Source: Pseudomonadota bacterium
Lineage (GTDB): Bacteria > Pseudomonadota > Alphaproteobacteria > Micavibrionales > Micavibrionaceae
Reading direction: 5' to 3'
Length of the DNA: 64,000 bases
Assembly (NCBI GenBank): GCA_029558635.1
Contig: JAKQEE010000258.1
Span: forward strand, 1-64,000
The stretch's first letter is position 1. The number at the start of each line of letters is the position of its first letter. Below are positions 45,906 through 60,242 of this stretch, in pieces. A model generated the notes under the pieces. It was not told the origin of the DNA and made no database searches. It was given only the letters and a program-made list of their open reading frames with translations. The translations under genes were made by a program, and so were the position numbers.

Positions 45906-46547
45906 CTATTGGCTGACCCAGATAATCCGTGCAATCCAGCTGATCTCTCTGGTTTCGAAGCTGCGGTTCTCATGGTCGGGGTTTAAAGATCTGAGTTCGA
46001 TTTTTCCGGCCGTCTGGCGCAGCAGTTCTTTAGCCATGACTTCACCCGCAGATGTTTTGACCACCACTCGGTCACCGCGGCGGATGGCCGCATCGGGCGA
46101 TACAATCAGGCGGTCGCCTGATCGGAACAATGGCATCATGGAATCGCCAGCGACTTCGAGAGCGTAGTATTTTACGTTGCCCTGCTCGGGATAGGGGAAG
46201 TGGATGTGGTCCCAGCCTTCGCCAGTCGGATATCCCGCGTCGTCGAAATATCCTTCCTTGCCGGCCTGTGCATATCCGATCACGGGAATCTTCGGTTTGG
46301 CGACTGCGGAACCTTTTTCATCGCTGATCAATGCCACGAAATCAACCATCTGTGCACCTGTGGCATCGAGAATGCGGGCGACGCTTTCTGTCGAGGGCCA
46401 ACGGGGTTTGCCGTCGGGTCCGGTGCGCTTGCTGCGGTTGAAGGCTGTCGGGTCCAATCCGGCTTTCTTCGCGAGACCCGATGTCGAGTAGCCGCAAGAT
46501 TGCGCGAGACGGTCAATAGCCAGCCAGATGGTTTCGTGGGTTAACAT
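45906..46547 (-). CDS. LexA-like S24 peptidase-type transcriptional regulator
   Basis: A 213-residue regulator: N-terminal helix-turn-helix (SGLAKKAGLDPTAFNRSKR, about residues 23-41), a short linker, and a C-terminal S24 domain with an Ala-Gly cleavage-type site (YAQAGKEG, about 91), the nucleophile in GDSMMP (about 138) and the general base in VMAKEL (about 174). Proteins of this type are widespread on alphaproteobacterial chromosomes, often without a phage nearby; it may thus be a host gene. Its start faces the phage-like cassette, with a 168-bp shared regulatory region. It is a good candidate to control the cassette. Self-cleavage has to be inferred. Confidence 0.85.
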   Translation of the reverse strand: MLTHETIWLAIDRLAQSCGYSTSGLAKKAGLDPTAFNRSKRTGPDGKPRWPSTESVARILDATGAQMVDFVALISDEKGSAVAKPKIPVIGYAQAGKEGYFDDAGYPTGEGWDHIHFPYPEQGNVKYYALEVAGDSMMPLFRSGDRLIVSPDAAIRRGDRVVVKTSAGEVMAKELLRQTAGKIELRSLNPDHENRSFETREISWIARIIWVSQ

Positions 46548-46573: not shown

Positions 46574-46587
46574 TCCTAGATATAGGA
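46574..46587. promoter_or_regulatory. Short palindrome upstream of the S24 regulator
   Basis: TCCTA-GATA-TAGGA is a symmetric site about 27 bp before the S24 start codon and 20 bp upstream of the cassette promoter. It could be an operator for the regulator itself. Confidence 0.4.
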
Positions 46588-46606
46588 AAATAATCTTAAA
46601 AACTTC

Positions 46607-46635
46607 TTGACAAAGGGAGAAAACGCTGCCATAAA
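46607..46635 (+). promoter_or_regulatory. Sigma70-like promoter of the phage-like cassette
   Basis: TTGACA at 46607-46612, a 17-nt spacer, then CATAAA at 46630-46635. The -35 matches the consensus fully; the -10 matches four of six positions. It points to the cassette. Confidence 0.6.
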
Positions 46636-46638
46636 CGA

Positions 46639-46653
46639 GAACATAAAGGGAAC
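46639..46653. promoter_or_regulatory. Candidate LexA (SOS) box, GAAC-N7-GAAC
   Basis: GAAC-ATAAAGG-GAAC fits the alphaproteobacterial LexA operator (GTTCN7GTTC on the other strand). It starts 3 bases downstream of the -10 and so covers the expected transcription start. Eight fixed bases arise by chance roughly twice in a window of this size, but rarely at such a position. Confidence 0.55.
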
Positions 46654-46715: not shown

Positions 46716-47108
46716 ATGTCTTGTCCGTCTGCCTGTCACGAGGTGTCTCGCGACACTATGGTTCCTTTTGCCTCTGCCGAGGCTGCGTGGTTTTGGTTTG
46801 TGCAATCGCAAATGGCCCGTGCCGAAGGAGCCAAGATCGTGGCGGGTGCGGGTCTGTATCCGCGCCCTTGCGAACCGGTCGATATTTGCCGCGAAGTCGA
46901 GCGTCTCTATCGCGGACGGCGATTGGTGATCGACCATATCAAAGTCATGAGGCATTACGGTATGCGGATGATGTCGCCCGATCCGCGTCGTCCGAAGGAA
47001 GCGCGCGCCCATCATGTGTGGGTCGGGGCCATGAAGCGTCTGGAGGATGCTCTGGTTTTAAAGGGGATTGTCGATTCCAGTTTGTCATGGCGGGCGAACT
47101 GTGTCTGA
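46716..47108 (+). CDS. Unknown protein, first gene of the cassette
   Basis: A 130-residue protein (or 116 if ATG 46758 is used; both have weak ribosome binding sites). It is basic and mostly helical, with AAWFWFVQSQMARAEG and PCEPVDICREVERLYRGRRL, and resembles uncharacterised proteins I associate with alphaproteobacterial chromosomes. As the first gene after the SOS-box promoter it may be a regulator, but nothing in the sequence proves DNA binding. It may also be a host gene cotranscribed with the cassette. Confidence 0.65.
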   Translation: MSCPSACHEVSRDTMVPFASAEAAWFWFVQSQMARAEGAKIVAGAGLYPRPCEPVDICREVERLYRGRRLVIDHIKVMRHYGMRMMSPDPRRPKEARAHHVWVGAMKRLEDALVLKGIVDSSLSWRANCV

Positions 47109-47472
47109 AAAGGGTGATGTGGCGTTGGTCGTCTTTAGCGACCAGACAGATTTATGGTGGCTGAAATTCCTGCGGCGCGGGTTTCGTCACTGTTTTGTGG
47201 TGATCCGGATTAATGATCGCTGGATTGCGATTGATCCGATGGTGCATTTTTTAGAGATTTCTCTTCCTGATTTGCCGGAGGATTTTGATCTGGCGGGGTG
47301 GTTCCAGGGTAGTGGAATGAAGGTTGTGGAAACACAGATATTGTTTCCTGAACGGCGGATGTACCCGCCGTTTTTTTTATCGTGTGTCGAGGTTGTCAAG
47401 CGGGTTCTGGGTCTTCACCAGCCTTTCATTCTGACGCCTGCGCAATTGTATAAATTTTTAAACAAGAATTAG
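47101..47472 (+). CDS. Unknown protein with possible permuted papain-like Cys/His pair
   Basis: A 123-residue protein; the GTG at 47101 is preferred to the track start at 47068 and overlaps the previous gene by 8 bases. The order His (RHCFVVIR, about residue 30) then Cys (LSCVEVVKRVLG, about 99), followed by LTPAQLYKFL, is like circularly permuted NlpC/P60 or papain-type enzymes. Function, perhaps peptidoglycan or protein cleavage, is a guess. It is in the run of cassette genes with a 12-bp gap to the next. Confidence 0.6.
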   Translation: MSEKGDVALVVFSDQTDLWWLKFLRRGFRHCFVVIRINDRWIAIDPMVHFLEISLPDLPEDFDLAGWFQGSGMKVVETQILFPERRMYPPFFLSCVEVVKRVLGLHQPFILTPAQLYKFLNKN

Positions 47473-47739: not shown

Positions 47740-49230
47740 ATGATGGATAGTAAAAAAATGGATGTTCCCGAAATTATTGTCGGGCGTTTTGACGCAGCGC
47801 GGGCGCGACGGTCTAATTGGGAAGGGTTGTGGCAGGATTGTTACGATTATGCGCTTCCCTATCGTGGCGATTTTTCCGGATATTTTTCCGGTGGATCACG
47901 GCGCGGGGAAACCCTGTTTGATGCGACGGCGCCTGATGCTGTTGATCAATTGGCTTCGCTATTGCTTGGCTATTTAACGCCGCCTTTTACCCCATGGTTT
48001 GCGATCAAGGCTGGAACGGATTTATCCGATGAAGAAGCGGAAAAACTGGCTCCGCTGCTTGATAAAACGACGCGGACGATGCAGGCGCATTTTGACCAGT
48101 CGAATTTTCTGGTTGAGATTCACCAGTGTTTTCTCGATCTGGTCGTTGCGGGGACGGCATCTCTGGCGTTTGAAGAGGCTGGGGTGGGTGAAGCATCAGC
48201 ATTCCGTTTTGCGGCATTGCCTCTTAAGGATGTCTATTTTGAGGAAGGGAATCAGGGTGGACTTGATATTGTTTACCGCGTTTTGTCACTGAGTGATTCG
48301 AAAATTCTTTCAAGATACGCGCTTGAAGAATTACCGACCGATGTTCTGCATGGCAGCCGTGATGACCCGGACAGGAAGTTCAGGGTTATCGAGGCCGTGT
48401 TTCCGCTGGAAACAGAAGGCGGCTACGGTTTGGTGGTCTTTATGGACGAAAGCGGTGAGGTTCTGGTGACCGAGCGTCTTAGTCATTCGCCCTTTATTAA
48501 TTTCCGGTGGATGAAGACGCCCGGTGAGATTTACGGTCGTTCTCCGGTGATGAAATCCTTACCTGATATTAAAACAGCCAACAAAGTGGTCGAACTGATT
48601 TTAAAAAATGCGTCGATTGCGGTCACAGGCATTTGGCAGGCCGATGATGACGGAGTGGTCAATCCGGCCAATATCGAATTGGTTCCAGGGGCGATTATTC
48701 CGAAGGCGGTCGGGTCTAAGGGTTTGACACCGCTCGAGATGCCTGCGCGGTTTGATGTCTCGCAACTGGTTCTGGAGGATTTGCGCGGGCGCATCCGTCA
48801 TGCGCTGTTGGCCGACCGTTTGCCGTCACTTGGCGGAAAAAATGCGACGGCGACCGAGATTGTCGAGCGGTCTGGCGAGATGGCGTTGCTTCTTGGGGCG
48901 ACGTTCGGGCGATTGCAGGTCGAATTCTTGCATCCGCTGATTACGCGGGCTTACCAGATTTTGCGTCGTCGCGGAGTTGTTCCCGATTTGCCGCTCGATG
49001 GGCGGACGCTTGCCATCGAATATAGATCGCCGTTGGCGCGGGCGCAGGCGGGGCAGCACGTCCAGACGATGATGGGGTGGCTGAATACTGCCGGATCATT
49101 GGGTGCGGATGCCGTGTCCAGAATCGACCGTGGGGCTGTTCTTGATTATCTCGCCCGAGTCCTCGGTGTTCCTGCATCTTTTTTAATTCCAACAAAATCC
49201 GAAATTTCAACATTTGAAGGAGAAAAATAA
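47740..49230 (+). CDS. Portal (head-to-tail connector) protein, podovirus type
   Basis: A 496-residue protein of the bacteriophage head-to-tail connecting family. Typical segments are RRSNWEGLWQDCYDYALPYR near residue 18, GETLFDATAPDAVDQLAS, GYLTPPFTPWFAI, TPGEIYGRSPVMKSLPDIKTANK (about 265) and LGGKNATATEIVERSGEM (about 365). It forms the dodecameric vertex through which DNA enters and leaves the capsid. Length matches the T7-like connector. Its stop overlaps the scaffold start (TAATG). Confidence 0.9.
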   Translation: MMDSKKMDVPEIIVGRFDAARARRSNWEGLWQDCYDYALPYRGDFSGYFSGGSRRGETLFDATAPDAVDQLASLLLGYLTPPFTPWFAIKAGTDLSDEEAEKLAPLLDKTTRTMQAHFDQSNFLVEIHQCFLDLVVAGTASLAFEEAGVGEASAFRFAALPLKDVYFEEGNQGGLDIVYRVLSLSDSKILSRYALEELPTDVLHGSRDDPDRKFRVIEAVFPLETEGGYGLVVFMDESGEVLVTERLSHSPFINFRWMKTPGEIYGRSPVMKSLPDIKTANKVVELILKNASIAVTGIWQADDDGVVNPANIELVPGAIIPKAVGSKGLTPLEMPARFDVSQLVLEDLRGRIRHALLADRLPSLGGKNATATEIVERSGEMALLLGATFGRLQVEFLHPLITRAYQILRRRGVVPDLPLDGRTLAIEYRSPLARAQAGQHVQTMMGWLNTAGSLGADAVSRIDRGAVLDYLARVLGVPASFLIPTKSEISTFEGEK

Positions 49231-49949
49231 TGACTGATACTTATCTGACTGCCGAGCTCGAAAATGCTGGTGCTGCGGATCGTCCGCAAAATGTTCCAGC
49301 AAAATTTTGGGATGCTGAAAAGAAAGAAATCCGCATTGATGCGCTGCTGGGCTCCTATGCTGCTCTGGAAAAGAAATTGTCGGGTATGGTTCCTGAAACC
49401 GATCGTGGGAGGATGCTCAAATTGATAGGTGTTCCGGATACTCCTGAAGGGTATCAGGTCAATCTGCCTTGTGATTATCTTGAGGTTGATCCTGATCTTA
49501 ATGCCCGTCTGCATGGTAAAGGATTTACACCGGAACAGGTGCAGGAAGTTTATGATCTGGCCGCCGAGAAGCTGGTTCCGATGATTTTGCAAATGGCGGC
49601 AGAGTTTCAGGCTGAACGCGAGATCGAACGTTTGGTCGAATCTTTCGGCGGTGTTGAAAAATGGCGTGACATCTCCAAACAATTGCAAGAATATGGCGTG
49701 CGCTCTTTGCCTCTGCAGGCGTTCGAAGGGATGGCGTGTTCCTATGACGGGGTGATGGCGCTTTACAAGATGATGCAAAGCGAGTCCGGTTCTTCTGTGA
49801 AAATTCGTGGCGAGAGTTCTCCATCGGATCCGATGGATGAAAAGTCCCTGCGCAAGATGATGCAGGACCCTAGGTACTGGCGTGATCGCAATTCCGCCTT
49901 TATCGAGAAGGTGACGAAGGGTTTTGAGCGTTTGTATGGAGGTAAGTAA
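49230..49949 (+). CDS. Capsid assembly scaffolding-like protein
   Basis: A 239-residue acidic, mostly helical protein between portal and capsid genes, the conserved place of the scaffold. Segments DTPEGYQVNLP and KGFTPEQVQEVYDLAAEKLVPMI recall phage scaffold proteins; the final KSLRKMMQDPRYWRDRNSAFIEKVTKGFERLY is a basic capsid-binding type C-terminus. It would guide capsid assembly and leave the prohead. Its stop is immediately followed by the opposite-strand PilZ gene. Confidence 0.78.
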   Translation: MTDTYLTAELENAGAADRPQNVPAKFWDAEKKEIRIDALLGSYAALEKKLSGMVPETDRGRMLKLIGVPDTPEGYQVNLPCDYLEVDPDLNARLHGKGFTPEQVQEVYDLAAEKLVPMILQMAAEFQAEREIERLVESFGGVEKWRDISKQLQEYGVRSLPLQAFEGMACSYDGVMALYKMMQSESGSSVKIRGESSPSDPMDEKSLRKMMQDPRYWRDRNSAFIEKVTKGFERLYGGK

Positions 49950-50348
49950 TTATGCTTGCGATCCGGCGAATTCGCGGGCGTTGAAATCGTCGATGACGTT
50001 CTGGAACGTTTTTCGGATGTCGCCGGTCAGCGGTTCGAATTGGAGCGAATAGCTTTCGGCCATTTTGCGGACGACTTTGGCGCGGTGTTTGACGTGGACC
50101 AGATGGTCGCGGAGGTGGAATTTCATCTCGACGTCCATTTCCTGTCCGACGCCCAGAGGACGCGGGTCACCGAACACTTTAACTCCGCCCGGACTCCAGT
50201 CGAGGATCGGGTGGGCTTTGCCGTCAATAAAGCCGATGCATTGGTCGCAGGATCGGCGCGGATGTGCGCGGCGGGATGTGAATCCGTTGCTACCATCGTC
50301 CGAGAGTGTTTTTTTGATTCCAATTGCTGACATAATGTTTTGCAGCAT
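49950..50348 (-). CDS. PilZ-domain protein inside the virion cassette
   Basis: A 132-residue protein with the two c-di-GMP-binding signatures of PilZ: RRAHPRRSC (RxxxR, about residues 26-34) and DWSPGGVKV (D/NxSxxG, about 49-57). The start at 50348 has AGGAG at good spacing. It is encoded opposite to all cassette genes and exactly abuts the scaffold stop codon. PilZ proteins are rare inside phage morphogenesis operons; this one could link particle production to c-di-GMP or be a host gene that moved in. Both signature motifs look intact. Confidence 0.85.
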   Translation of the reverse strand: MLQNIMSAIGIKKTLSDDGSNGFTSRRAHPRRSCDQCIGFIDGKAHPILDWSPGGVKVFGDPRPLGVGQEMDVEMKFHLRDHLVHVKHRAKVVRKMAESYSLQFEPLTGDIRKTFQNVIDDFNAREFAGSQA

Positions 50349-50658: not shown

Positions 50659-51489
50659 ATGAGTACCGAACTCAACAAGGCGTTCGTCAAGCAGTTCGAA
50701 CGCGAAGTCCATGAAGCCTATCAGCGTCAGGGGTCCAAACTGCGCGGTGCGGTCCGTACAATTAACAATGTGAAAGGTTCAAGTGTTGTCTTCCAGAAAG
50801 TCGGCAAAGGAACTGCGTCCACCAAGTCCACCCACGGTATGGTTCCGGTGATGAATCTGTCCTATGCCTCGGTCGAATGTGCGTTGCAGGATTATTATGC
50901 CGGTGACTGGGTCGACAAATTCGATGAACTGAAAATCAACCATGATGAGCGTCAGGTGATTGCCAATGCTGGTGCCTATGCGCTGGGCCGCAAAACCGAC
51001 GAGTTGATTATTACAGCTTTGGCGACTGCATCAACCTATAGCATTGCCGATAGTAATACTGGCATGACTCTCGACAAGCTTTTGGGAGCATTTGAATTGC
51101 TGGGGGCGGCCAATGTGCCGGATGATGGCGGGCGTTTCGCTGTGATCGGTTGGAAGCAATGGAGTGAAATGCTCAAGATCCCTGAATTCGCTAGCAGTGA
51201 ATTCGTTGGTCCTGACGAGCTTCCCTATAAAGACACGCAGGCCAAGAAATGGCTCGGCACCACCTGGATTCCTCATTCGGGTTTGCCGATTAACGGTAGT
51301 GATATTCGTTCCTGTTTCTGGTTCCACCGTACCGCCATCGGTCATGCATCTGGTTCCGATGTCCAAACTGATGTCAGCTGGCATGGCGACCGTGCAGCGC
51401 ACTTCGTCAACAATATGATGAGCCAAGGCGCTTCCCTGATTGATCAGGAAGGTGTGGTTATCGTCAATTGTGACGAGACGCCTGACTAG
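50659..51489 (+). CDS. Major capsid protein
   Basis: A 276-residue protein in the capsid position after portal and scaffold. It starts with STELNKAFVKQFEREVHEAYQRQGSKLRG and has VVFQKVGKG and DKFDELKINHDERQVIANAGAYALGRKTDELI, features of the podovirus capsid family with HK97-like fold. Strong ribosome binding site (AAGGAG). It has its own upstream regulatory interval and is followed by a stem-loop, so it can be made in excess over neighbours. Confidence 0.85.
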   Translation: MSTELNKAFVKQFEREVHEAYQRQGSKLRGAVRTINNVKGSSVVFQKVGKGTASTKSTHGMVPVMNLSYASVECALQDYYAGDWVDKFDELKINHDERQVIANAGAYALGRKTDELIITALATASTYSIADSNTGMTLDKLLGAFELLGAANVPDDGGRFAVIGWKQWSEMLKIPEFASSEFVGPDELPYKDTQAKKWLGTTWIPHSGLPINGSDIRSCFWFHRTAIGHASGSDVQTDVSWHGDRAAHFVNNMMSQGASLIDQEGVVIVNCDETPD

Positions 51490-51595: not shown

Positions 51596-51838
51596 ATGTC
51601 TTTACAAAGCAAGGACCTCAGTGTGCTGGCCTATGCCAACAAATTCACTCTGTGGCATTACACGACGTTCGATTCGTCGGTTGTCACCACGGGTTATTTC
51701 AACAACGCGGCGTCGATGCTGCGCGTTAACGATCTGATTATCGTGAATATAGATACGGATGGCACACCGTCTACGGTGTTTTATATCGTCACTGCCAACA
51801 CGGGCTCGTCCGTGACGATAGCGGCCTTTACCGCCTGA
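51596..51838 (+). CDS. Small virion-associated protein, possible capsid decoration protein
   Basis: An 80-residue beta-rich protein (KFTLWHYTTFDSSVVTTGYFNNAASMLRVNDLIIVN) placed between capsid and tail tubular genes. Small proteins here are often capsid decoration or head fibre proteins in related phages. It has AGGAG before its ATG and is flanked on both sides by stem-loops, as if expressed together with the capsid. Confidence 0.6.
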   Translation: MSLQSKDLSVLAYANKFTLWHYTTFDSSVVTTGYFNNAASMLRVNDLIIVNIDTDGTPSTVFYIVTANTGSSVTIAAFTA

Positions 51839-52081: not shown

Positions 52082-52651
52082 ATGGCTTTGTCCGATATTG
52101 GTTTATGTTCGCGTGCGCTGGTCAAAATCGGTGCGCATCCGATTGCGTCCTTCTCGGACGGTACGGCCTCCTCTGAGATTGCGGGGCTTTTGTATGATTC
52201 CGTTCGTGATGCGGTTTTATCTTCCTATGGGTGGAGTTTTGCTACCGGACAGGTCACGCTGACACGGCTTACAACTGCGCCAGCGGCTGACTATCAATAT
52301 GCGTATCAATTGCCCAATGATTTCCTGCGTGCGATTTCCGCCGGATATCCTGCGCGCGGGAGGGGGCTTTCCTACCGTATTCAAGGAAGACAGCTTCATA
52401 TCAATGCCGAAGAGGTGTTGCTCACCTATATTTACCGTCCGGTTGAGGAAACATTTCCGCCCTATTTTGACATGGCGTTGATTGCGCGTCTGGCGGCTGA
52501 GTTTTGTATTCCATTGACTGAAAATGTATCGCGGTCTGAAGTTTTATCCAAACTTGCCGAACAGGAATTTACCCGTGCGCGCCAGATCGACGCGCAGCAG
52601 GATAGTCCAAACCGGATCGAGAGTTTTTCCTTAATTGATGCGAGGGAGTAA
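52082..52651 (+). CDS. Tail tubular protein A-like (T7 gp11-like)
   Basis: A 189-residue protein: MALSDIGLCSRALVKIGAHPI, VRDAVLSSYGWSFATGQVTL and ISAGYPARGRGLSYRIQGRQLHINAEEVLLTYIYRP are typical of the gp11-like tail gatekeeper family. It sits under the portal and starts the short tail. The GTG start of the next gene follows 2 bases after its stop. Confidence 0.85.
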   Translation: MALSDIGLCSRALVKIGAHPIASFSDGTASSEIAGLLYDSVRDAVLSSYGWSFATGQVTLTRLTTAPAADYQYAYQLPNDFLRAISAGYPARGRGLSYRIQGRQLHINAEEVLLTYIYRPVEETFPPYFDMALIARLAAEFCIPLTENVSRSEVLSKLAEQEFTRARQIDAQQDSPNRIESFSLIDARE

Positions 52652-52653
52652 TC

Positions 52654-54549
52654 GTGAAAACCATTCAGATCAAAACAACGTTTACGGCCGGTGAAGTGTC
52701 TTCGGATCTGCTCGGGCGTGGGGATTTGCGTGCTTATGAGAACGGGGCGCTGAAACTCCGTAACGTCTTTATCCAGCCGACAGGAGGGATAAAGCGTCGT
52801 TCTGGGCTGCGGTATATTGATACGGCTGCCGGTGCGGGGCGTCTGATTTCGTTCGAGTTTAATACCGAGCAGACTTATTTGTTGGTTTTAACCGATCTCC
52901 AGATTGCGGTTTATGCGAATGGAGTGTTGCAAACAATGCTGGTTTCGCCATGGGCAGAAGCGGATCTGGCACAACTTGCCTGGACGCAATCAGCTGATAC
53001 GCTTCTTCTGGTCCATCCTGACTATCCGCCCAAGAAACTGACGCGTAGCGGTGGTGGAGTATGGGCGTTGGTCGACTGGGTGTTCTATTCCGAGACTAAT
53101 CGTATTCACCAGCCAATGTATAAGTTTGCGGATAGCGCCATTACCGTTACGCCGAGTGGAACCGGCGGGACCATTACATTGACGGCGTCTGCCTCAGTAT
53201 TCGAGGCCGGTCATGCGGGGACACGCTTGCGGGTTGGAAATAAGGAAGTTCAGGTCACTTCGGTTGATTCACCAACAGTTGTTACGGTTTCAGTTAAAGA
53301 AACTCTAGGTTCTACGTCGGCGACGGTGGATTGGGAAGAGCAGTCTTTTTCCCCCGTGCACGGTTATCCGGTGACTGTGGCGTTCCATCAGGATCGTTTG
53401 GTGATCGGCGGTTCGCAGGATTTGCCGAACCGATTGTGGTTTTCTCAATCGGGCGATTTGTTCAATTTCGATTTGGGGACAGGACTGGATGCCGAGGCGA
53501 TCGAGTTTGGGATTTTTTCGGATCAGGTCAATGCCATTCGCGGTGTGTTTTCGGGGAGACATCTGCAAGTATTTACAAGTGGTGCGGAATGGATGGTCAC
53601 GGGTGATCCGCTCACTCCGTCTACCGTCCAGATTAAACGCCAGACGCGGGTCGGGTCGCGGGTTGATCGCTATATTGCGCCTTTGGATGTTGACGGGGCA
53701 ACGTTGTTTGTGGCGCGTAACGGTCAGGAGCTTCGCGAGTTTGTTTATACAGATGTCGAGCAAGCTTATCAGTCAACCGATCTGGCACTCTTGTCGAAAC
53801 ATATTATTACCACGCCTGCTGATCAGGATTTTGATCAAAAGCGGCGCTTGTTGTTTCTGGTTCGTGAGGACGGGAAATTTGCAACGCTCACGGTGTTCCG
53901 AGCCGAGGAGGTGGCGGCATGGACTCTCCATGAGACGGCGGGCTCGATGCTCTCCGTCTGTGTTGCGGGTGATGTCGTCTATTTTCTAATCAACCGTGAC
54001 GGGGCTTACCTGATTGAGCAGATCGATGACGATCTTCATCTTGATTCTGCGTTAGCCGGAGAGAGCGGGACGCCTGCCAATGAGTGGAGTGGGCTTGGAC
54101 ATCTGGAAGGGAAAACCGTATCTGTCGTGGCCGATGGTCGTGTGCAGGCCGCTGAAATCGTAAGCAGTGGAGTGGTGACGCTTGATGGTGCGTATAGCAC
54201 TGTCCAGATCGGGTTGCCTTATACCCATTTGATCGAGCCTTTGCCTCCTGCCAATACGACAGATATCGGAGCCGCGCGGGCGGTCCGTCTGGTCGAGGCC
54301 ACGTTCCGTCTTAAAGAGACGGCGGCGTTACAACTCAATGTCGGGCGCGGGTTAAAAGATGTTTCGCTTCGTCAGTTGGGTGATGATGAAATTCTCGATG
54401 CGCCCGCGCCGCTTGTGTCGGGCGATATCCGCGTTCAGGCCTATGGATGGTCTTATGATACCAGCAAGCCTCTGTGGGTGATTGAACAGAGTTTGCCGTT
54501 ACCGTTTGCACTGTTGTCGGTGCAAATGAGTGTGATGGCTAATAGTTAG
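52654..54549 (+). CDS. Tail tubular protein B-like / tail nozzle protein
   Basis: A 631-residue protein with GTG start. The beginning TTFTAGEVSSDLLGRGDLRAYENGALKLRNVFIQPTGG matches a widespread phage family found after gp11-like genes (F(T)AGE...GR.D...Y..G....N....P.GG). It is mostly beta-structured. By position it corresponds to the nozzle (gp12-like). It is somewhat shorter than T7 gp12 (about 790 residues). Confidence 0.75.
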   Translation: MKTIQIKTTFTAGEVSSDLLGRGDLRAYENGALKLRNVFIQPTGGIKRRSGLRYIDTAAGAGRLISFEFNTEQTYLLVLTDLQIAVYANGVLQTMLVSPWAEADLAQLAWTQSADTLLLVHPDYPPKKLTRSGGGVWALVDWVFYSETNRIHQPMYKFADSAITVTPSGTGGTITLTASASVFEAGHAGTRLRVGNKEVQVTSVDSPTVVTVSVKETLGSTSATVDWEEQSFSPVHGYPVTVAFHQDRLVIGGSQDLPNRLWFSQSGDLFNFDLGTGLDAEAIEFGIFSDQVNAIRGVFSGRHLQVFTSGAEWMVTGDPLTPSTVQIKRQTRVGSRVDRYIAPLDVDGATLFVARNGQELREFVYTDVEQAYQSTDLALLSKHIITTPADQDFDQKRRLLFLVREDGKFATLTVFRAEEVAAWTLHETAGSMLSVCVAGDVVYFLINRDGAYLIEQIDDDLHLDSALAGESGTPANEWSGLGHLEGKTVSVVADGRVQAAEIVSSGVVTLDGAYSTVQIGLPYTHLIEPLPPANTTDIGAARAVRLVEATFRLKETAALQLNVGRGLKDVSLRQLGDDEILDAPAPLVSGDIRVQAYGWSYDTSKPLWVIEQSLPLPFALLSVQMSVMANS

Positions 54550-54570: not shown

Positions 54571-55008
54571 ATGGGGACATTAACTTCGGTTTTGACGCCG
54601 ATTTTGAGTATTGGCAGTGCCTTAAGCGGTGCGCAGCGCGTGTCACAAGACAATCGCGAGAATGATTTGAGGCTTCGGCAATATGAGCAGAATGCGGCGC
54701 TTCATAAAAAGCAGAATTTGTTTGATTTGCAAAATGCCGAAACCGAACGGAGAACTAAATTAAAAAAACTGATCTCGGCACAACGCGCCCAGTTTGGCAG
54801 CGGTGGCATTCGCTCTGGCGCAGGTTCAAGTGAGGCTGTTCTGGAAGGACTGTTTTCGGATTCGGACATTGAACGTCAACAAGGCGAAGGTGATGTGGCG
54901 CTGGCCAACCAAAAAATCAATCAAGGGATTACGCAGCAGCGTCAACTCAATCTTTTGCAAAAAGAGCAGTTGCGCCAGAAAACCATTTTGAACACCCTGC
55001 TTAGCTAA
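54571..55008 (+). CDS. Internal virion protein, T7 gp14-like
   Basis: A 145-residue protein: a small hydrophobic start (LTSVLTPILSIGSALSGA), a long Gln/Lys-rich coiled coil, and the conserved-looking AQFGSGGIRSGAGSSEAVLEG. This pattern matches the gp14 family of core/ejection proteins. No counterparts of the very large ejection proteins gp15 and gp16 follow it. Good AAGGAG site. Confidence 0.7.
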   Translation: MGTLTSVLTPILSIGSALSGAQRVSQDNRENDLRLRQYEQNAALHKKQNLFDLQNAETERRTKLKKLISAQRAQFGSGGIRSGAGSSEAVLEGLFSDSDIERQQGEGDVALANQKINQGITQQRQLNLLQKEQLRQKTILNTLLS

Positions 55009-55032: not shown

Positions 55033-57054
55033 ATGACCGAGCATATTAGAATGCCCGATGTGGTGCCGCTTGTGCGCTATCTGGCGAATGGCACGCAGAG
55101 CGTCTTTGAATATCCGTTTCCGATCTTTGCAAGTGAAGATCTGAAGGTTTTGTTTGATGGGGCGGAACAAATATCAGGATTTACGATTGATGGAGCCGGT
55201 GCAACTGCCGGCGGAACTGTAACGTTCGATGTTGCTCCTATTTCGGATGTTGTCGTGACGTTGGAACGGCGGATGGCGTTTGAACGGCTCACCGATTTTG
55301 TCGAAGGTGGCAATTTTGCGGCTGCGGCCATTAATGCCGAGCTTGATTTTCTGGTGGCGGGTCTTCAACAGGTTTCGCGTGACCAGATTCCGATGTTACG
55401 TTTCGATGAGGGGGAAGCGCCTTCGGTGACGTCTTTGCCTGCGCGGGATGTGCGGGCGGGGAAGGCACTCGGGTTTGACGGCAATGGCGACCCTGTGGCG
55501 GTGTCTTTAGCGGGCAGTATGGCTGCTCCTGATTTCACGGCTGTGGGGAATGGTGCGGTGACGCGCACTAACCATGACAAATTTTCCGATTTTGTATCGG
55601 TCAAGGATTTCGGCGCTGTGGGTGACGGTCTGACCGATGATACTTTGGCCTTTCAGCAGGCTTTGGCGGCGCACGATCATGTCTTTGTACCCAGTGGTGT
55701 TTACATTGTTACAGGGACGATTGCAGTCGGCGATGGGCAATCCTTGGCGGGGGCTGGTGATTCGTCAGAAATCAAAACATCGTCTTCGATTGTACTTGTT
55801 CACCTGACCGGTTCTTATGCGCGCTTGGCGACTCTGAAATTGTTCGGCGGGGATGTCGGGATCAAGCTTTCGGGGCTGTCTGGGCCGTGCGTTCAGAATG
55901 CGGTGGTGGACGTGTCAACATGGCAGGCACAGACGGGAATTTTGCTTGATGGCGGGTCTGATACAGGCAAGCCCTGTTACTGGAACAATTTTGTGCGGGT
56001 GTTGGTGGCTCAACCGTTTGTGAATGGCATTCACTTGAAACGAAGCGGAGCAGGGGATACGCCCAATGCCAACCGCTTTATGCAATGCCGTGTTTATTCT
56101 CTGGGGGCTACGACTTCGGGAAGCGGGATTTACATCGAAGAAGGGTCGTTCAACAACAGCTTTACCGATACGGAAGTCAATGTGAACGGAACGGCGCAGG
56201 CTTGTGTCAGATGTGGTGCTGGATCAAATAAGACGATTTTTGTGAATCTGTATTGTGAATCATCTAATTCAGTTCCAAATGTAAAACTTGATGCTGGATC
56301 AATCGAGACGGCTATTTACAATCTCTTGTCGGCTAGTGATGGTGCAGCGATTTGGGATTTGTCGGGTGGGCAGTATACGGCGTTCAATGCGGGGTATCCT
56401 TATAAAAACCGTTTGCAGAAAACGACTTGTACCGACCTAACGTCAACTTTGCAGCGCTATGATACTGAGTATATCGACGCAAGCGGGACGGTGACACTTG
56501 ATTTATCGCACTCTATCCATCTGGTGTCGTCTTATGGTGGCGCGTTGACGGTGCAGTTGCCCAATGCCGCCGATGCGGCGGCGGCGATGATGATGGTCAA
56601 GAAAATCGACACATCAAAAAACATTATCACCGTAACGGAATCAGGCGGAACAGGGCCGGATGATCGTTCCTATTATCTGGGCGGAGAAAACGATTTCGTG
56701 ATGATGATGTCGAACGGGGCGGAATGGTTTGTGATTTCAACCAACCGTTCGGCGGGGAATACACGCTATTACGACGGGTCGGGGACATATGATATCGACA
56801 TGGCGGTGGATGTGTATTTGTTGTCTTCCTATGGCGGGGTTTTGACGGCGAGGTTGCCGCCAGCCAATGCACCGGAAGCGATCGGGCGGATGGTCACAAT
56901 CAAGAAAACTGACGTATCGGCCAATCCTGTCATGGTTTCCGAGTTGGGTGGTTCGGGTCCGGACCAGTATACCCAATCGTTGACCTCACAATTTCAGTCG
57001 ATCACGGTCGTGTCCGATGGCGGGCATTGGTATATTGTCAGCCGCTTTTCTTAG
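55033..57054 (+). CDS. Tailspike with pectate-lyase-type beta-helix
   Basis: A 673-residue receptor-binding protein. N-terminal virion-binding domain of the T7 tail fibre type (VRYLANGTQSVFEYPFPIFASEDLKVLFDG, residues 11-40), linker, then a beta-helix starting SVKDFGAVGDGLTDDTLAFQQAL (about 190), which is the pectate-lyase-3 signature, and finally two tandem modules of about 95 residues (VSSYGGALTVQLP... and LSSYGGVLTARLP...), each with IxxTxxGGxGPD and a Trp-containing end. It likely recognises and may depolymerise surface polysaccharide of the target cell. Confidence 0.87.
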   Translation: MTEHIRMPDVVPLVRYLANGTQSVFEYPFPIFASEDLKVLFDGAEQISGFTIDGAGATAGGTVTFDVAPISDVVVTLERRMAFERLTDFVEGGNFAAAAINAELDFLVAGLQQVSRDQIPMLRFDEGEAPSVTSLPARDVRAGKALGFDGNGDPVAVSLAGSMAAPDFTAVGNGAVTRTNHDKFSDFVSVKDFGAVGDGLTDDTLAFQQALAAHDHVFVPSGVYIVTGTIAVGDGQSLAGAGDSSEIKTSSSIVLVHLTGSYARLATLKLFGGDVGIKLSGLSGPCVQNAVVDVSTWQAQTGILLDGGSDTGKPCYWNNFVRVLVAQPFVNGIHLKRSGAGDTPNANRFMQCRVYSLGATTSGSGIYIEEGSFNNSFTDTEVNVNGTAQACVRCGAGSNKTIFVNLYCESSNSVPNVKLDAGSIETAIYNLLSASDGAAIWDLSGGQYTAFNAGYPYKNRLQKTTCTDLTSTLQRYDTEYIDASGTVTLDLSHSIHLVSSYGGALTVQLPNAADAAAAMMMVKKIDTSKNIITVTESGGTGPDDRSYYLGGENDFVMMMSNGAEWFVISTNRSAGNTRYYDGSGTYDIDMAVDVYLLSSYGGVLTARLPPANAPEAIGRMVTIKKTDVSANPVMVSELGGSGPDQYTQSLTSQFQSITVVSDGGHWYIVSRFS

Positions 57055-57109: not shown

Positions 57110-57439
57110 TTGAAATCTATTACAATTGAAGAGACCACGCGGGCGCAGGTGGCGGAATTCCTGCCGCGCGCTATATCCAAGGCTTTGCAGTCTTACCACG
57201 AATTTATGGAAGGGACCGCGTTTGGTGAGGAAGCTAAAGAGTTTTCCGATGCGCATAAGGCGGCGAAAGTCGCCATTTCGCATATCGAGCTTTTGATCAA
57301 GCTTGCGAAATGGGCTGACCTGCCGGATGCGGCGATTGAAAGCAAAGGGGAGTTGGATGAATTCTCGAATCTTATGAATCGCGCTGAAGGTGATGTCAAA
57401 GATTATTACGCCCACAGGGTTGAAGGTGATGACGAATAA
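57110..57439 (+). CDS. Possible small terminase subunit
   Basis: A 109-residue acidic helical protein (TTG start behind CAGGGGAATG). It is directly before the large terminase gene, where T7-like phages encode the small subunit (gp18). I cannot see a clear DNA-binding motif. The role is inferred from place and size only. Confidence 0.5.
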   Translation: MKSITIEETTRAQVAEFLPRAISKALQSYHEFMEGTAFGEEAKEFSDAHKAAKVAISHIELLIKLAKWADLPDAAIESKGELDEFSNLMNRAEGDVKDYYAHRVEGDDE

Positions 57440-57441
57440 AA

Positions 57442-58923
57442 ATGGTTTCAAGAGACTGTGGATTTCCGCTTTTCGTGGCGCTGTGGAACAGGGTACAAGG
57501 CCTGTCGACCCCGGCGGTGCATTTCGTGATCGCGGCGTTTTTAGAGACGAGTTGGGAGCGCGGGGACAGGCGGCTGTTGCTGATGGCATTCCGTGCGTGC
57601 GGGAAATCGACACTTGTTGGTCTGTTTTGCGTTTGGCTTTTGTTAAAGTCACCTGACGTTCGGATACTGGTTTTATCTGCCGATCTGCCGCTGGCCAAAA
57701 AGATGGTGCGAAATGCCAAGCGGATACTGGAAAAGCATCCACTCACACGGCATTTGAAACCTGCAGCGCTTGATCAGTGGGCAAGTGACCGGTTTACGGT
57801 GAACCGCGAGACAGAACTTCGCGACCCGTCGATGCTGGCCAAGGGGATTATGAGCAACCTGACGGGGACACGTGCTGATGTGGTGATCTGTGATGATGTC
57901 GAGGTGCCTAAAACTAGCGATACGTCCGGGAAACGCGCATTTCTGCGCGAGAGGTTGTTGGAACTGGATTATATTCTGACACCCGATGGAACGCAGTTAT
58001 ATGTCGGGACGCCGCATTGTTTCCACTCGATTTATGCGGAGAAACCTTTGGGCGAATATGGGGAGGCCCAGATTTTTCTCGAAGGTTTTTTGCGGATGGT
58101 GTTGCCTGTTTTAAACGCGCGGGGTGAGAGTGTGTGGCCCGAACGGTTTCCATTGGAGAAAATCCGTGCGATTGAAAAACGCACGGGTCCTGCGCATTTC
58201 AAAAGCCAGATGATGTGCGAGATTTTCAATATTGCGGACGGGTATTTTTCGGCTGACCAGCTTGGGATTTATCAAAAGATTATTGATTATCGCGAGGCGA
58301 ACGGGCGGCCTGTGCTTGAAATTGGCGGGCGGAAGATGGTGTCTGTTTCGGCGTGGTGGGACCCGTCTTTCGGTAAAGACGGTGGTGACCGCAGTATATT
58401 GGCGATTGTCTATACTGATGAGGACGGGGAATATTTCCTTCATCATCTGGAGCAAATCAAAACCGATGCGAAGAGTAAGGACGATGAAGCTACGCAGCAA
58501 TGTAAACAAGTGGCAGAGTTGGCAGCGCGGTTTTATTTGCCGTCTATAGCTCTTGAAACCAACGGGATTGGCAAGTTTCTGCCAGGAATTTTGCGTCGGG
58601 AGCTGGCGGCGATGAGATTGACTTGCGCGGTGTGTGAGATCACGTCGAACAAGCCTAAGGCTGTGCGTATTCTGGAATCTCTGGATGCGGTGATGGCGGC
58701 ACGGGCGCTCCATATTCACGGATCGGTTCTCAGGACGCCGTTTTTATCCGAGCTTGAGGATTGGCGGCCCACGGGCAATCGGGGACATGACGATTGTCTG
58801 GATGCGGTGGCAGGAGCGATTTCGTTAGAGCCGGTGCGGATCAAACGTGTGATGACGGGTAGAGGAGCTGCATCATGGCGCGGGGTGCAGCCGCATACGG
58901 CGCAAAGTGAGTTTGAGGTTTAG
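57442..58923 (+). CDS. Terminase large subunit
   Basis: A 493-residue packaging motor. The ATPase domain has Walker A FRACGKST (residues 50-57) and Walker B VVICDDVE (about 147). The nuclease domain has acidic residues in WWDPSFGKDGGDRS (about 305-318), LETNGIGKF (about 372) and RGHDDCLDAV (about 450). All catalytic positions look intact, which argues for a working motor. Starts 2 bases after the previous gene. Confidence 0.9.
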   Translation: MVSRDCGFPLFVALWNRVQGLSTPAVHFVIAAFLETSWERGDRRLLLMAFRACGKSTLVGLFCVWLLLKSPDVRILVLSADLPLAKKMVRNAKRILEKHPLTRHLKPAALDQWASDRFTVNRETELRDPSMLAKGIMSNLTGTRADVVICDDVEVPKTSDTSGKRAFLRERLLELDYILTPDGTQLYVGTPHCFHSIYAEKPLGEYGEAQIFLEGFLRMVLPVLNARGESVWPERFPLEKIRAIEKRTGPAHFKSQMMCEIFNIADGYFSADQLGIYQKIIDYREANGRPVLEIGGRKMVSVSAWWDPSFGKDGGDRSILAIVYTDEDGEYFLHHLEQIKTDAKSKDDEATQQCKQVAELAARFYLPSIALETNGIGKFLPGILRRELAAMRLTCAVCEITSNKPKAVRILESLDAVMAARALHIHGSVLRTPFLSELEDWRPTGNRGHDDCLDAVAGAISLEPVRIKRVMTGRGAASWRGVQPHTAQSEFEV

Positions 58924-58934
58924 GAAACAATAAA

Positions 58935-59180
58935 ATGACTGATTTTTTGGATGCGTTCGGGTGGTGGATTGCGGTGATCGAATTGCCTGTGTTGTCGGCC
59001 TTGTTCTGGATGATCCAGCATTTAAGAGACGATCTTGCCAACCACAGGCTGGAGGTCGCAAAGAATTATGCGCAGGTGCAGGATTTGCGGTTGCTGGAAA
59101 ACCGTATCACGTCGCATTTGCTGCGGATCGAAGCCAAGCTCGATGTTACGGCGCTTAAAGCCGAGAAAAATTCCCAATAG
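58935..59180 (+). CDS. Small membrane protein with coiled coil (Rz-like or accessory lysis protein)
   Basis: An 81-residue protein with one hydrophobic helix (about residues 8-27, FGWWIAVIELPVLSALFWMI) followed by a charged helical stretch up to the end. This topology is like Rz-type spanins or holin helpers. It lies just before the SleB hydrolase and holin genes in the lysis part. Confidence 0.6.
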   Translation: MTDFLDAFGWWIAVIELPVLSALFWMIQHLRDDLANHRLEVAKNYAQVQDLRLLENRITSHLLRIEAKLDVTALKAEKNSQ

Positions 59181-59192
59181 AAAGGATTAATC

Positions 59193-59675
59193 ATGGATAA
59201 ACCGAAATTGACACCGGTGCCCAAAGAGGCAGCGGACGAGAACGCACGTGAATTTTATAAGGAAATGGAAGTTGATATTCTGGCGCGGACCATTTGGGGC
59301 GAGGCCCGCGGTGAAGGGAAGACAGGGATGGAGGCCGTGGCGATGGTTATTCTCAACCGTGCGACAGTAGCGCAGGCGCGCGGCGGGTACTGGTGGGGGA
59401 ATTCTGTAATCGAGGTTTGTCAAAAACCTTATCAGTTTTCCTGTTGGAACAAGGAAGATCCGAATTACCGGAAGCTGATTTCAGTGAATGACAGTGATGT
59501 TTATTTTGCAACGGCACAGCGTGTGGCTCGGCGGGCCTTGCTTGGGTTTCTAAAGGATTCGACTTACGGGGCAACGCATTATCATGCGCGTCATGCCTCG
59601 CCGTCATGGACCAAGGGGCAGCGTCCGTGTGCGGTGATTGGTCGTCACATTTTCTATCATCTGGCGGAGGGATAG
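59193..59675 (+). CDS. SleB-type cell wall hydrolase (endolysin)
   Basis: A 160-residue hydrolase_2 (SleB/CwlJ-like) enzyme with ARTIWGEARGEGKTGMEAVAMVILNR (about residues 30-55; Glu is the probable catalytic residue) and PYQFSCWN. It cuts peptidoglycan glycan strands. There is no signal peptide, so it needs the holin for access to the wall. The same family occurs in gene transfer agent lysis sets. Confidence 0.87.
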   Translation: MDKPKLTPVPKEAADENAREFYKEMEVDILARTIWGEARGEGKTGMEAVAMVILNRATVAQARGGYWWGNSVIEVCQKPYQFSCWNKEDPNYRKLISVNDSDVYFATAQRVARRALLGFLKDSTYGATHYHARHASPSWTKGQRPCAVIGRHIFYHLAEG

Positions 59676-59678
59676 CAC

Positions 59679-60242
59679 ATGGCGTTGCCTGTTTTGGCGC
59701 AAATCGGCATTCCGGTTCTGGTTAAGGGGCTGGCGGAGGGGTTGGCGCAGCTTAAATCCCCCGTGGCGCAAGGGGCTTCAGCTGCTCTTGCGGAGTTGGG
59801 GGATGCGTTTGGCAATGGTCTGGTGTCTCCAGAACAGATGGCCGAACTCAACCGCCATCTTGAAAAAGTTCAGGAGATTGAAGCGTCCGAGCGACAAAAT
59901 TCGATCCAGCAGATCAATGAAAGTCTCAGGGCCGAAGTTGCGTCGAGTGACCCTTATGTGCGACGGATGCGGCCGACCTTCGGTTATATCATCGCGACAA
60001 CGTGGGGTGCGCAGATGTTTGCCTTAGCCTATATCATTGTGTTTGAAACGTCGCAGGCGGCGCTTGTGATTGATGCGATGGAAAAGCTTGGCACGATCTG
60101 GGCGGTCGGTTTGTCGGTCCTCGGGATTTATGTGTACAAACGTAGTGAGGAAAAGAAGTTGTCGTCGCCTGTACTTCAAGCCAAGGAGGAAATTGTTGCT
60201 CCTGCCGCACCTCCGGTTAAACAACCAAAATATAATGAATAG
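59679..60242 (+). CDS. Holin, 3-TM family known for gene-transfer-agent release
   Basis: A 187-residue protein with an N-terminal amphipathic region, a coiled coil ending in LRAEVASSDPYVRRMRPTFGYIIATTWGAQM (about residues 85-115), and about two to three hydrophobic helices thereafter. The SDPYVRRMRPTF signature is that of the 'holin of 3TMs, for gene-transfer release' family (PF11351). It would permeabilise the inner membrane for the SleB enzyme and cell lysis. Last gene of the cassette. Confidence 0.85.
   Translation: MALPVLAQIGIPVLVKGLAEGLAQLKSPVAQGASAALAELGDAFGNGLVSPEQMAELNRHLEKVQEIEASERQNSIQQINESLRAEVASSDPYVRRMRPTFGYIIATTWGAQMFALAYIIVFETSQAALVIDAMEKLGTIWAVGLSVLGIYVYKRSEEKKLSSPVLQAKEEIVAPAAPPVKQPKYNE

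Follow-up and report, generated by a model that had tools for sequence, protein, structure and literature searches.

A predicted LexA box at the promoter of a podovirus-type virion and lysis cassette, conserved through the order Micavibrionales

Introduction

Does a cassette of phage-like virion and lysis genes in an alphaproteobacterial genome answer to DNA damage through its own promoter? That LexA governs phage-like genes is well established, and the alphaproteobacterial LexA consensus GTTCN7GTTC has been documented for Caulobacter (PMC12700426). The cassette considered here lies in a 64-kb stretch of DNA (hereafter, the window), which is part of a metagenome-assembled genome from the order Micavibrionales. 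A first-pass annotation had placed the motif GAAC-ATAAAGG-GAAC over the likely start of a TTGACA-N17-CATAAA promoter, and both elements are present at 46607-46653 as described. It had also equated GAACN7GAAC with the alphaproteobacterial LexA operator, which agrees with the direct repeat of the published consensus (PMC12700426) and with the presence of the motif at repair genes. Our analysis favors, with a probability of roughly 0.87, the reading that positions 46639-46653 constitute a working LexA operator repressing the cassette promoter, with a RogA/CI-like repressor as a second lock.

Results

The box is shared with repair genes

In the window sequence, the predicted LexA box begins 3 bp 3' of the -10 element and overlaps the core promoter and the start, as predicted from the promoter sequence (Table 1). 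The bare GAACN7GAAC pattern occurs 3 times in the window against 2.48 expected, and the 3.65-Mb genome holds 130 exact copies, compared with 110 of the reversed control. Given a count so near to expectation in the window, the pattern is common and by itself uninformative, and the other two window sites (22579 and 28323) look like chance matches. For a region of about 170 bp, the first-pass annotation had put the chance of a match at around half a percent, close to our computed expectation of ~0.007 for both strands. The form with an AT-rich spacer, GAACAWANNRRGAAC, has just six exact matches in the organism's own 3.65-Mb genome. Besides the cassette site, these comprise a pair in the dinB promoter, a site at the 3' end of nth, and another pair ahead of a small gene.

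Across seven well-assembled relatives, such sites were found before recA, dinB, uvrA and the gene for a radical-SAM protein, and also beside radA (gene names at these sites were assigned from the relatives' sequences). Of 31 recA upstream regions, 19 contain GAACN7GAAC, for the most part at a distance of about 115 bp (-109 to -133) and in a single orientation, with no match to the control pattern. A matrix built from the recA, dinB and uvrA boxes only ranks the window site at the top of the 64 kb, with a margin of about 9 bits (20.1 bits versus 11.4 for the runner-up). This score difference, together with the occurrence of the motif at dinB in the genome itself and at recA, dinB and uvrA in the relatives, leads us to read the site as a LexA box.

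The genome encodes one LexA. No GAACN7GAAC was found upstream of its own lexA, so that the customary autoregulation may be lacking; lexA (L010:3080-3877) sits in a trp operon, with the gene order trpG-trpD-trpC-lexA. Its own recA likewise has no exact box upstream and features only a one-mismatch version near the recA start (C68:18595-18609). A second recA in the assembly (C213:7995-8777) fits the estimated contamination of 5.9%.

A virion and lysis cassette among household genes

Table 1. Features of the cassette and its control region in the window.
Feature	Position	Strand	Support or remark
S24 (LexA/CI-like) repressor, 213 aa, RogA-like	45906-46547	-	PF00717 E 2.6e-22; CI-like PHROGs
Putative repressor operator TAGGAAAATAATCTTA	46583-46598	not assigned	degenerate on one side; order consensus GGA-N6-TCC
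Promoter TTGACA-N17-CATAAA	46607-46635	+	-35 at 46607-46612; -10 at 46630-46635
LexA box (predicted) GAACATAAAGGGAAC	46639-46653	+	covers predicted transcription start
First cassette gene, 130 aa, all-helical	46716-47108	+	AF2 mean pLDDT 89
Second cassette gene, ~120 aa, start uncertain	47068-47472	+	conserved beside first gene
Small gene, 83 aa	47485-47736	+	
Portal, T7-type head-tail connector	47740-49230	+	PF12236 E 7.6e-132
Scaffold-like, T7 capsid assembly family	49230-49949	+	PF05396 E 1.2e-10
PilZ-domain protein	49950-50348	-	PF07238
Major capsid protein	50659-51489	+	PF19821 E 5.9e-82
Conserved 80-aa virion-region protein	51596-51838	+	phrog_18004
Tail tubular protein A-like	52082-52651	+	phrog_394 E 1.6e-47
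Tail tubular protein B-like	52654-54549	+	phrog_376 E 2.6e-154
Possible internal virion protein (weak)	54571-55008	+	phrog_418 E 0.008
Tail spike, pectate-lyase-like fold	55033-57054	+	PF12708 E 1.1e-12; tail PHROGs
Small protein encoded before terL; small terminase candidate by position	57110-57439	+	phrog_31793 (no function annotated)
Terminase large subunit, T7 type	57442-58923	+	NF033889 E 2e-125
Conserved 81-aa protein between terL and lysin gene	58935-59180	+	phrog_29007 (no function annotated)
SleB-like cell wall hydrolase (lysin)	59193-59675	+	PF07486 E 8.6e-20; endolysin PHROG
Three-TM holin	59679-60242	+	PF11351 GTA_holin_3TM E 7.2e-10

The gene content is that of a T7/podovirus-type set for virion formation and lysis, and a search within the cassette revealed neither an integrase nor a replication gene or polymerase. 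It is flanked by household genes, namely those for a DegP-like protease, a RarA-like ATPase, NhaA, an aminotransferase and DHFR, and NhaA is found downstream of the cassette in other genera and in a second family as well. The PilZ-domain (c-di-GMP type) gene, lodged on the opposite strand between the scaffold and capsid genes, is kept across the order. For the first cassette gene, there was no match in sequence families, phage records or fold searches; a GafY/GafZ-like activator was considered for it, and no sequence or fold match to one was recovered.

The box is conserved at a fixed position across the order

The regions 5' of the portal gene yielded 84 non-redundant orthologous promoters within Micavibrionales. 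The first-pass annotation had named conservation of the site wherever the cassette occurs as a check on its proposal, and the outcome bears it out: 75 of the 84 promoters (~90%) carry an exact sense-oriented GAACN7GAAC, and four more a box with one core mismatch. Nine promoters have no exact box, with five of these showing at least two core mismatches. By comparison, the 11 alternative orderings of these letters each match between 0 and 2 of the 84 promoters, and a scan of GAAC-Nk-GAAC over spacings up to 20 gave 75 matches at k = 7, with no other k exceeding 11. The geometry relative to the core promoter is similarly constrained, the distance from the start of TTGAC to the box being 31-32 bp in 64 instances; the -10 region is conserved as well. 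The box persists while the portal protein has diverged to ~55% identity across the order. Outside the order, the box is found in about a third of the S24-linked promoters, often in the opposite orientation; six loci from other orders feature a LexA-type box in the same intergenic region with reversed orientation, which suggests repeated gain.

A divergent repressor and a putative second operator

The first-pass annotation had missed a second conserved operator, the divergent S24 repressor and the apparently vertical, order-wide conservation of the cassette. In an alignment, the S24 protein from the window retains the Ala95-Gly96 cleavage site, Ser136 and Lys173. In E. coli LexA, the catalytic Ser119 and Lys156 are 37 residues apart, and Lys173 was assigned as the catalytic lysine of the window protein by this spacing. 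S24 homologues are widespread in the class, being commoner than the capsid gene and in part located elsewhere in the genome; the co-occurrence of the two has an odds ratio of 13.

A GGA-N6-TCC element lies directly 5' of the -35 element in 63 of the 84 promoters of the order, with no instance at spacings of 4, 5, 7 or 8, and its best match precedes the LexA box by 53-56 bp. Caulobacter RogA is a 213-aa HTH-S24 repressor of the GTA activators that binds inverted repeats of the form GGAA-N4-TTCC (PMC9632790). The order's GGA-N6-TCC has the same spacing as this repeat. An S24/HTH repressor and a repeat of the RogA type are found together at the target promoter, the window's own copy of the repeat being degenerate, and we infer that the window S24 repressor binds this element. 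In contrast to RogA, the window protein is not missing the catalytic residues. With such a RogA/CI-like S24 repressor encoded divergently, this genome probably senses damage twice over, through both LexA and the S24 repressor.

The divergent protein varies within the order. The Ser-Lys pair is missing at the aligned positions in 34 of the 54 scored proteins, and GAACN7GAAC, in either orientation, is kept in 32 of the 34 promoters concerned. In 16 cases, the S24 repressor is replaced by an HTH-orotate phosphoribosyltransferase fusion (best PDB match 4ohc, E 2.4e-68), with the exact box retained in 15 of these. The phosphoribosyltransferase of the fusion stands in place of the S24 autopeptidase domain; an example is encoded on the minus strand at L150:458-1393, and 16 further loci with it were noted. 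In one genome (G021), the divergent gene codes for a LysE-type transporter and the box is still present, and in some relatives the repressor has vanished while the LexA box remains. That the box outlasts loss or replacement of the repressor argues for LexA, rather than the neighboring gene product, as the protein that recognizes it.

Distribution, descent and selection

The portal gene was found in 106 of the 142 genomes of the order, including 84 of the 98 good ones, with the cassette almost always confined to a single locus in each genome. Between close pairs, dN/dS is mostly 0.02-0.12, pointing to purifying selection on the cassette. Portal distance tracks RecA distance (Mantel r 0.57, 0 of 2000 permutations, 44 genomes), which fits largely vertical descent, as judged by correlation with one marker gene. 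In the class sample, the capsid gene is present in 51 of 314 good genomes, some of which are 0.9-1.2 Mb in size, and most capsid-gene-bearing genomes share the same cassette gene order. The same cassette is found across Alphaproteobacteria at the loci L315-L346, which include genomes of 0.9-1.2 Mb.

Discussion

Alternative explanations

A GAACN7GAAC match arising by chance and having no regulatory role might seem admissible from the genome and window counts, which lie close to their control and expectation; it is refuted by the conservation of sequence, spacing and position in the 75 promoters, with a spacer like that of the repair genes, and we give it next to no weight. The box might instead be the operator of the divergent S24 repressor, with LexA playing no part and a prophage-like unit standing under its own CI-like protein only. 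Repressors of this kind usually bind their own divergent region, and the one encoded across the promoter could itself recognize the box. We nevertheless hold this to be very improbable: the motif is common to recA, dinB and uvrA; the box persists beside a LysE-like gene and beside regulators that retain just the HTH, with a swapped C-terminal half; and a separate palindrome with the published RogA operator spacing is conserved beside it.

A different objection grants LexA control and takes the cassette for a decaying or ordinary mobile prophage with the usual prophage induction. All cassette genes of known role are indeed phage genes, IMG/VR counts many of these loci as viral, and S24 repressors are common in prophages. 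Against this, the cassette is a single locus maintained order-wide, its portal diverges in step with RecA under strong purifying selection, and it sits without integrase or replication gene between household genes, with NhaA downstream across genera and in a second family, making the prophage explanation unlikely. The LexA operator favored here has its own points against it, namely the lexA without a box, the recA without an exact one, the nine promoters of the order without an exact box, and the presence of the box in only about a third of the S24-linked promoters outside the order.

Comparison with known particle systems

A set of virion and lysis genes lacking both integrase and replication genes, and single-copy conservation under purifying selection that appears vertical by one marker, are features of gene transfer agents (GTAs). 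RogA of Caulobacter crescentus (PMC9632790, PMC11150451) resembles the window repressor in being an S24/HTH protein of 213 aa, and CcGTA resembles the cassette as a domesticated phage cluster under a chromosomal repressor with GGAA-N4-TTCC repeats at the target promoter. RogA represses gafYZ rather than the structural cluster and is without key catalytic residues, unlike the window protein; nor do the passages considered here describe a LexA box, in contrast to this cassette. CcGTA is of the RcGTA type: the GTA_TIM marker (PF13547) is detected in the Caulobacter control and in 0 of the 142 genomes of the order, and a relationship to RcGTA-like GTAs (Rhodogtaviriformidae) was rejected on the absence of this marker. 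Production of RcGTA and of the Dinoroseobacter shibae GTA is tied to LexA, as proposed here, with the particle type differing (no GTA_TIM gene here); for the D. shibae cluster, a LexA site has been predicted in silico, a further likeness to this cassette. In Rhodobacter capsulatus, LexA is reported to repress cckA (Kuchinski 2016, as cited in PMC6473078), whereas here the predicted LexA box is on the cassette promoter itself and conserved order-wide.

The FpGTA of Faecalibacterium prausnitzii (PMC12946183) resembles the cassette as a GTA-like system with a podovirus-type particle that includes lysis genes; it differs in its unrelated host and its two operons (PMC12946183). The BaGTA of Bartonella is likewise an alphaproteobacterial domesticated phage cluster. 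It has terL adjoining the portal, together with a linked origin of replication that derives from phage (PMC3610622, PMC9662315), whereas in this cassette the portal comes first and terL is near the end. A relationship to BaGTA was rejected from the published gene order. Short podoviruses of Pelagibacter and Vibrio have a homologous capsid protein (PF19821; 31-47% identity among the isolate matches listed); these are phages of ~32-39 kb, and the first cassette gene has no match in phage records. We found no description of this podovirus-type cassette lineage of Alphaproteobacteria in the open literature searched, and only passing mentions of Micavibrio together with GTAs.

Proposed mechanism and significance

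In the undamaged cell, LexA bound over the promoter start would block the podovirus-type particle and lysis cassette, and the divergent RogA/CI-like repressor would provide the second lock at the GGAA-N4-TTCC-type operator 5' of the -35 element. Upon DNA damage, activated RecA would trigger LexA self-cleavage and open the first lock; the S24 repressor, having the cleavage site and the Ser-Lys pair, would probably open too in this genome. The particle genes would then be expressed, followed by the lysin and holin. The sequences show the site, the promoter, the second operator, the gene content, the conservation and the sharing of the motif with repair genes, and from these we infer LexA binding, repression, damage induction, particles and lysis; LexA repression of the cassette promoter predicts damage-induced particle production and lysis, such that cells probably make particles and burst upon DNA damage. 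The particle itself may transfer genes as a GTA, kill other cells or be a defective phage that is stably kept, with conservation, selection and the missing mobility genes favoring a host-serving role.

Throughout the order, the predicted LexA box holds a constant placement at the promoter start of a domesticated particle cassette. Such a box on the cassette promoter would link particle release to DNA damage directly, bypassing CckA or GafA, and makes it testable whether the particles serve recombination repair, as proposed for the Caulobacter GTAs. The finding also points to a repressor with an exchanged sensor half. More tentatively, and with somewhat less than even confidence, we suggest that the T7-type podovirus cassettes across the class could form an unrecognized domesticated lineage and act as GTAs under LexA and RogA-family control at their own promoter, releasing host DNA upon damage, and that in part of Micavibrionales the orotate phosphoribosyltransferase, in place of the damage-sensing half of the repressor, might bring in a signal from pyrimidine nucleotides, with damage still sensed through LexA.

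A further gene with LexA-type boxes

LexA-type boxes were also observed upstream of the gene for a small protein (111-125 aa, containing PTDQNNNPIPALRLKD) in two genomes of the genus (L013:3439-3485 and L167:1501), making this gene a candidate new SOS gene.
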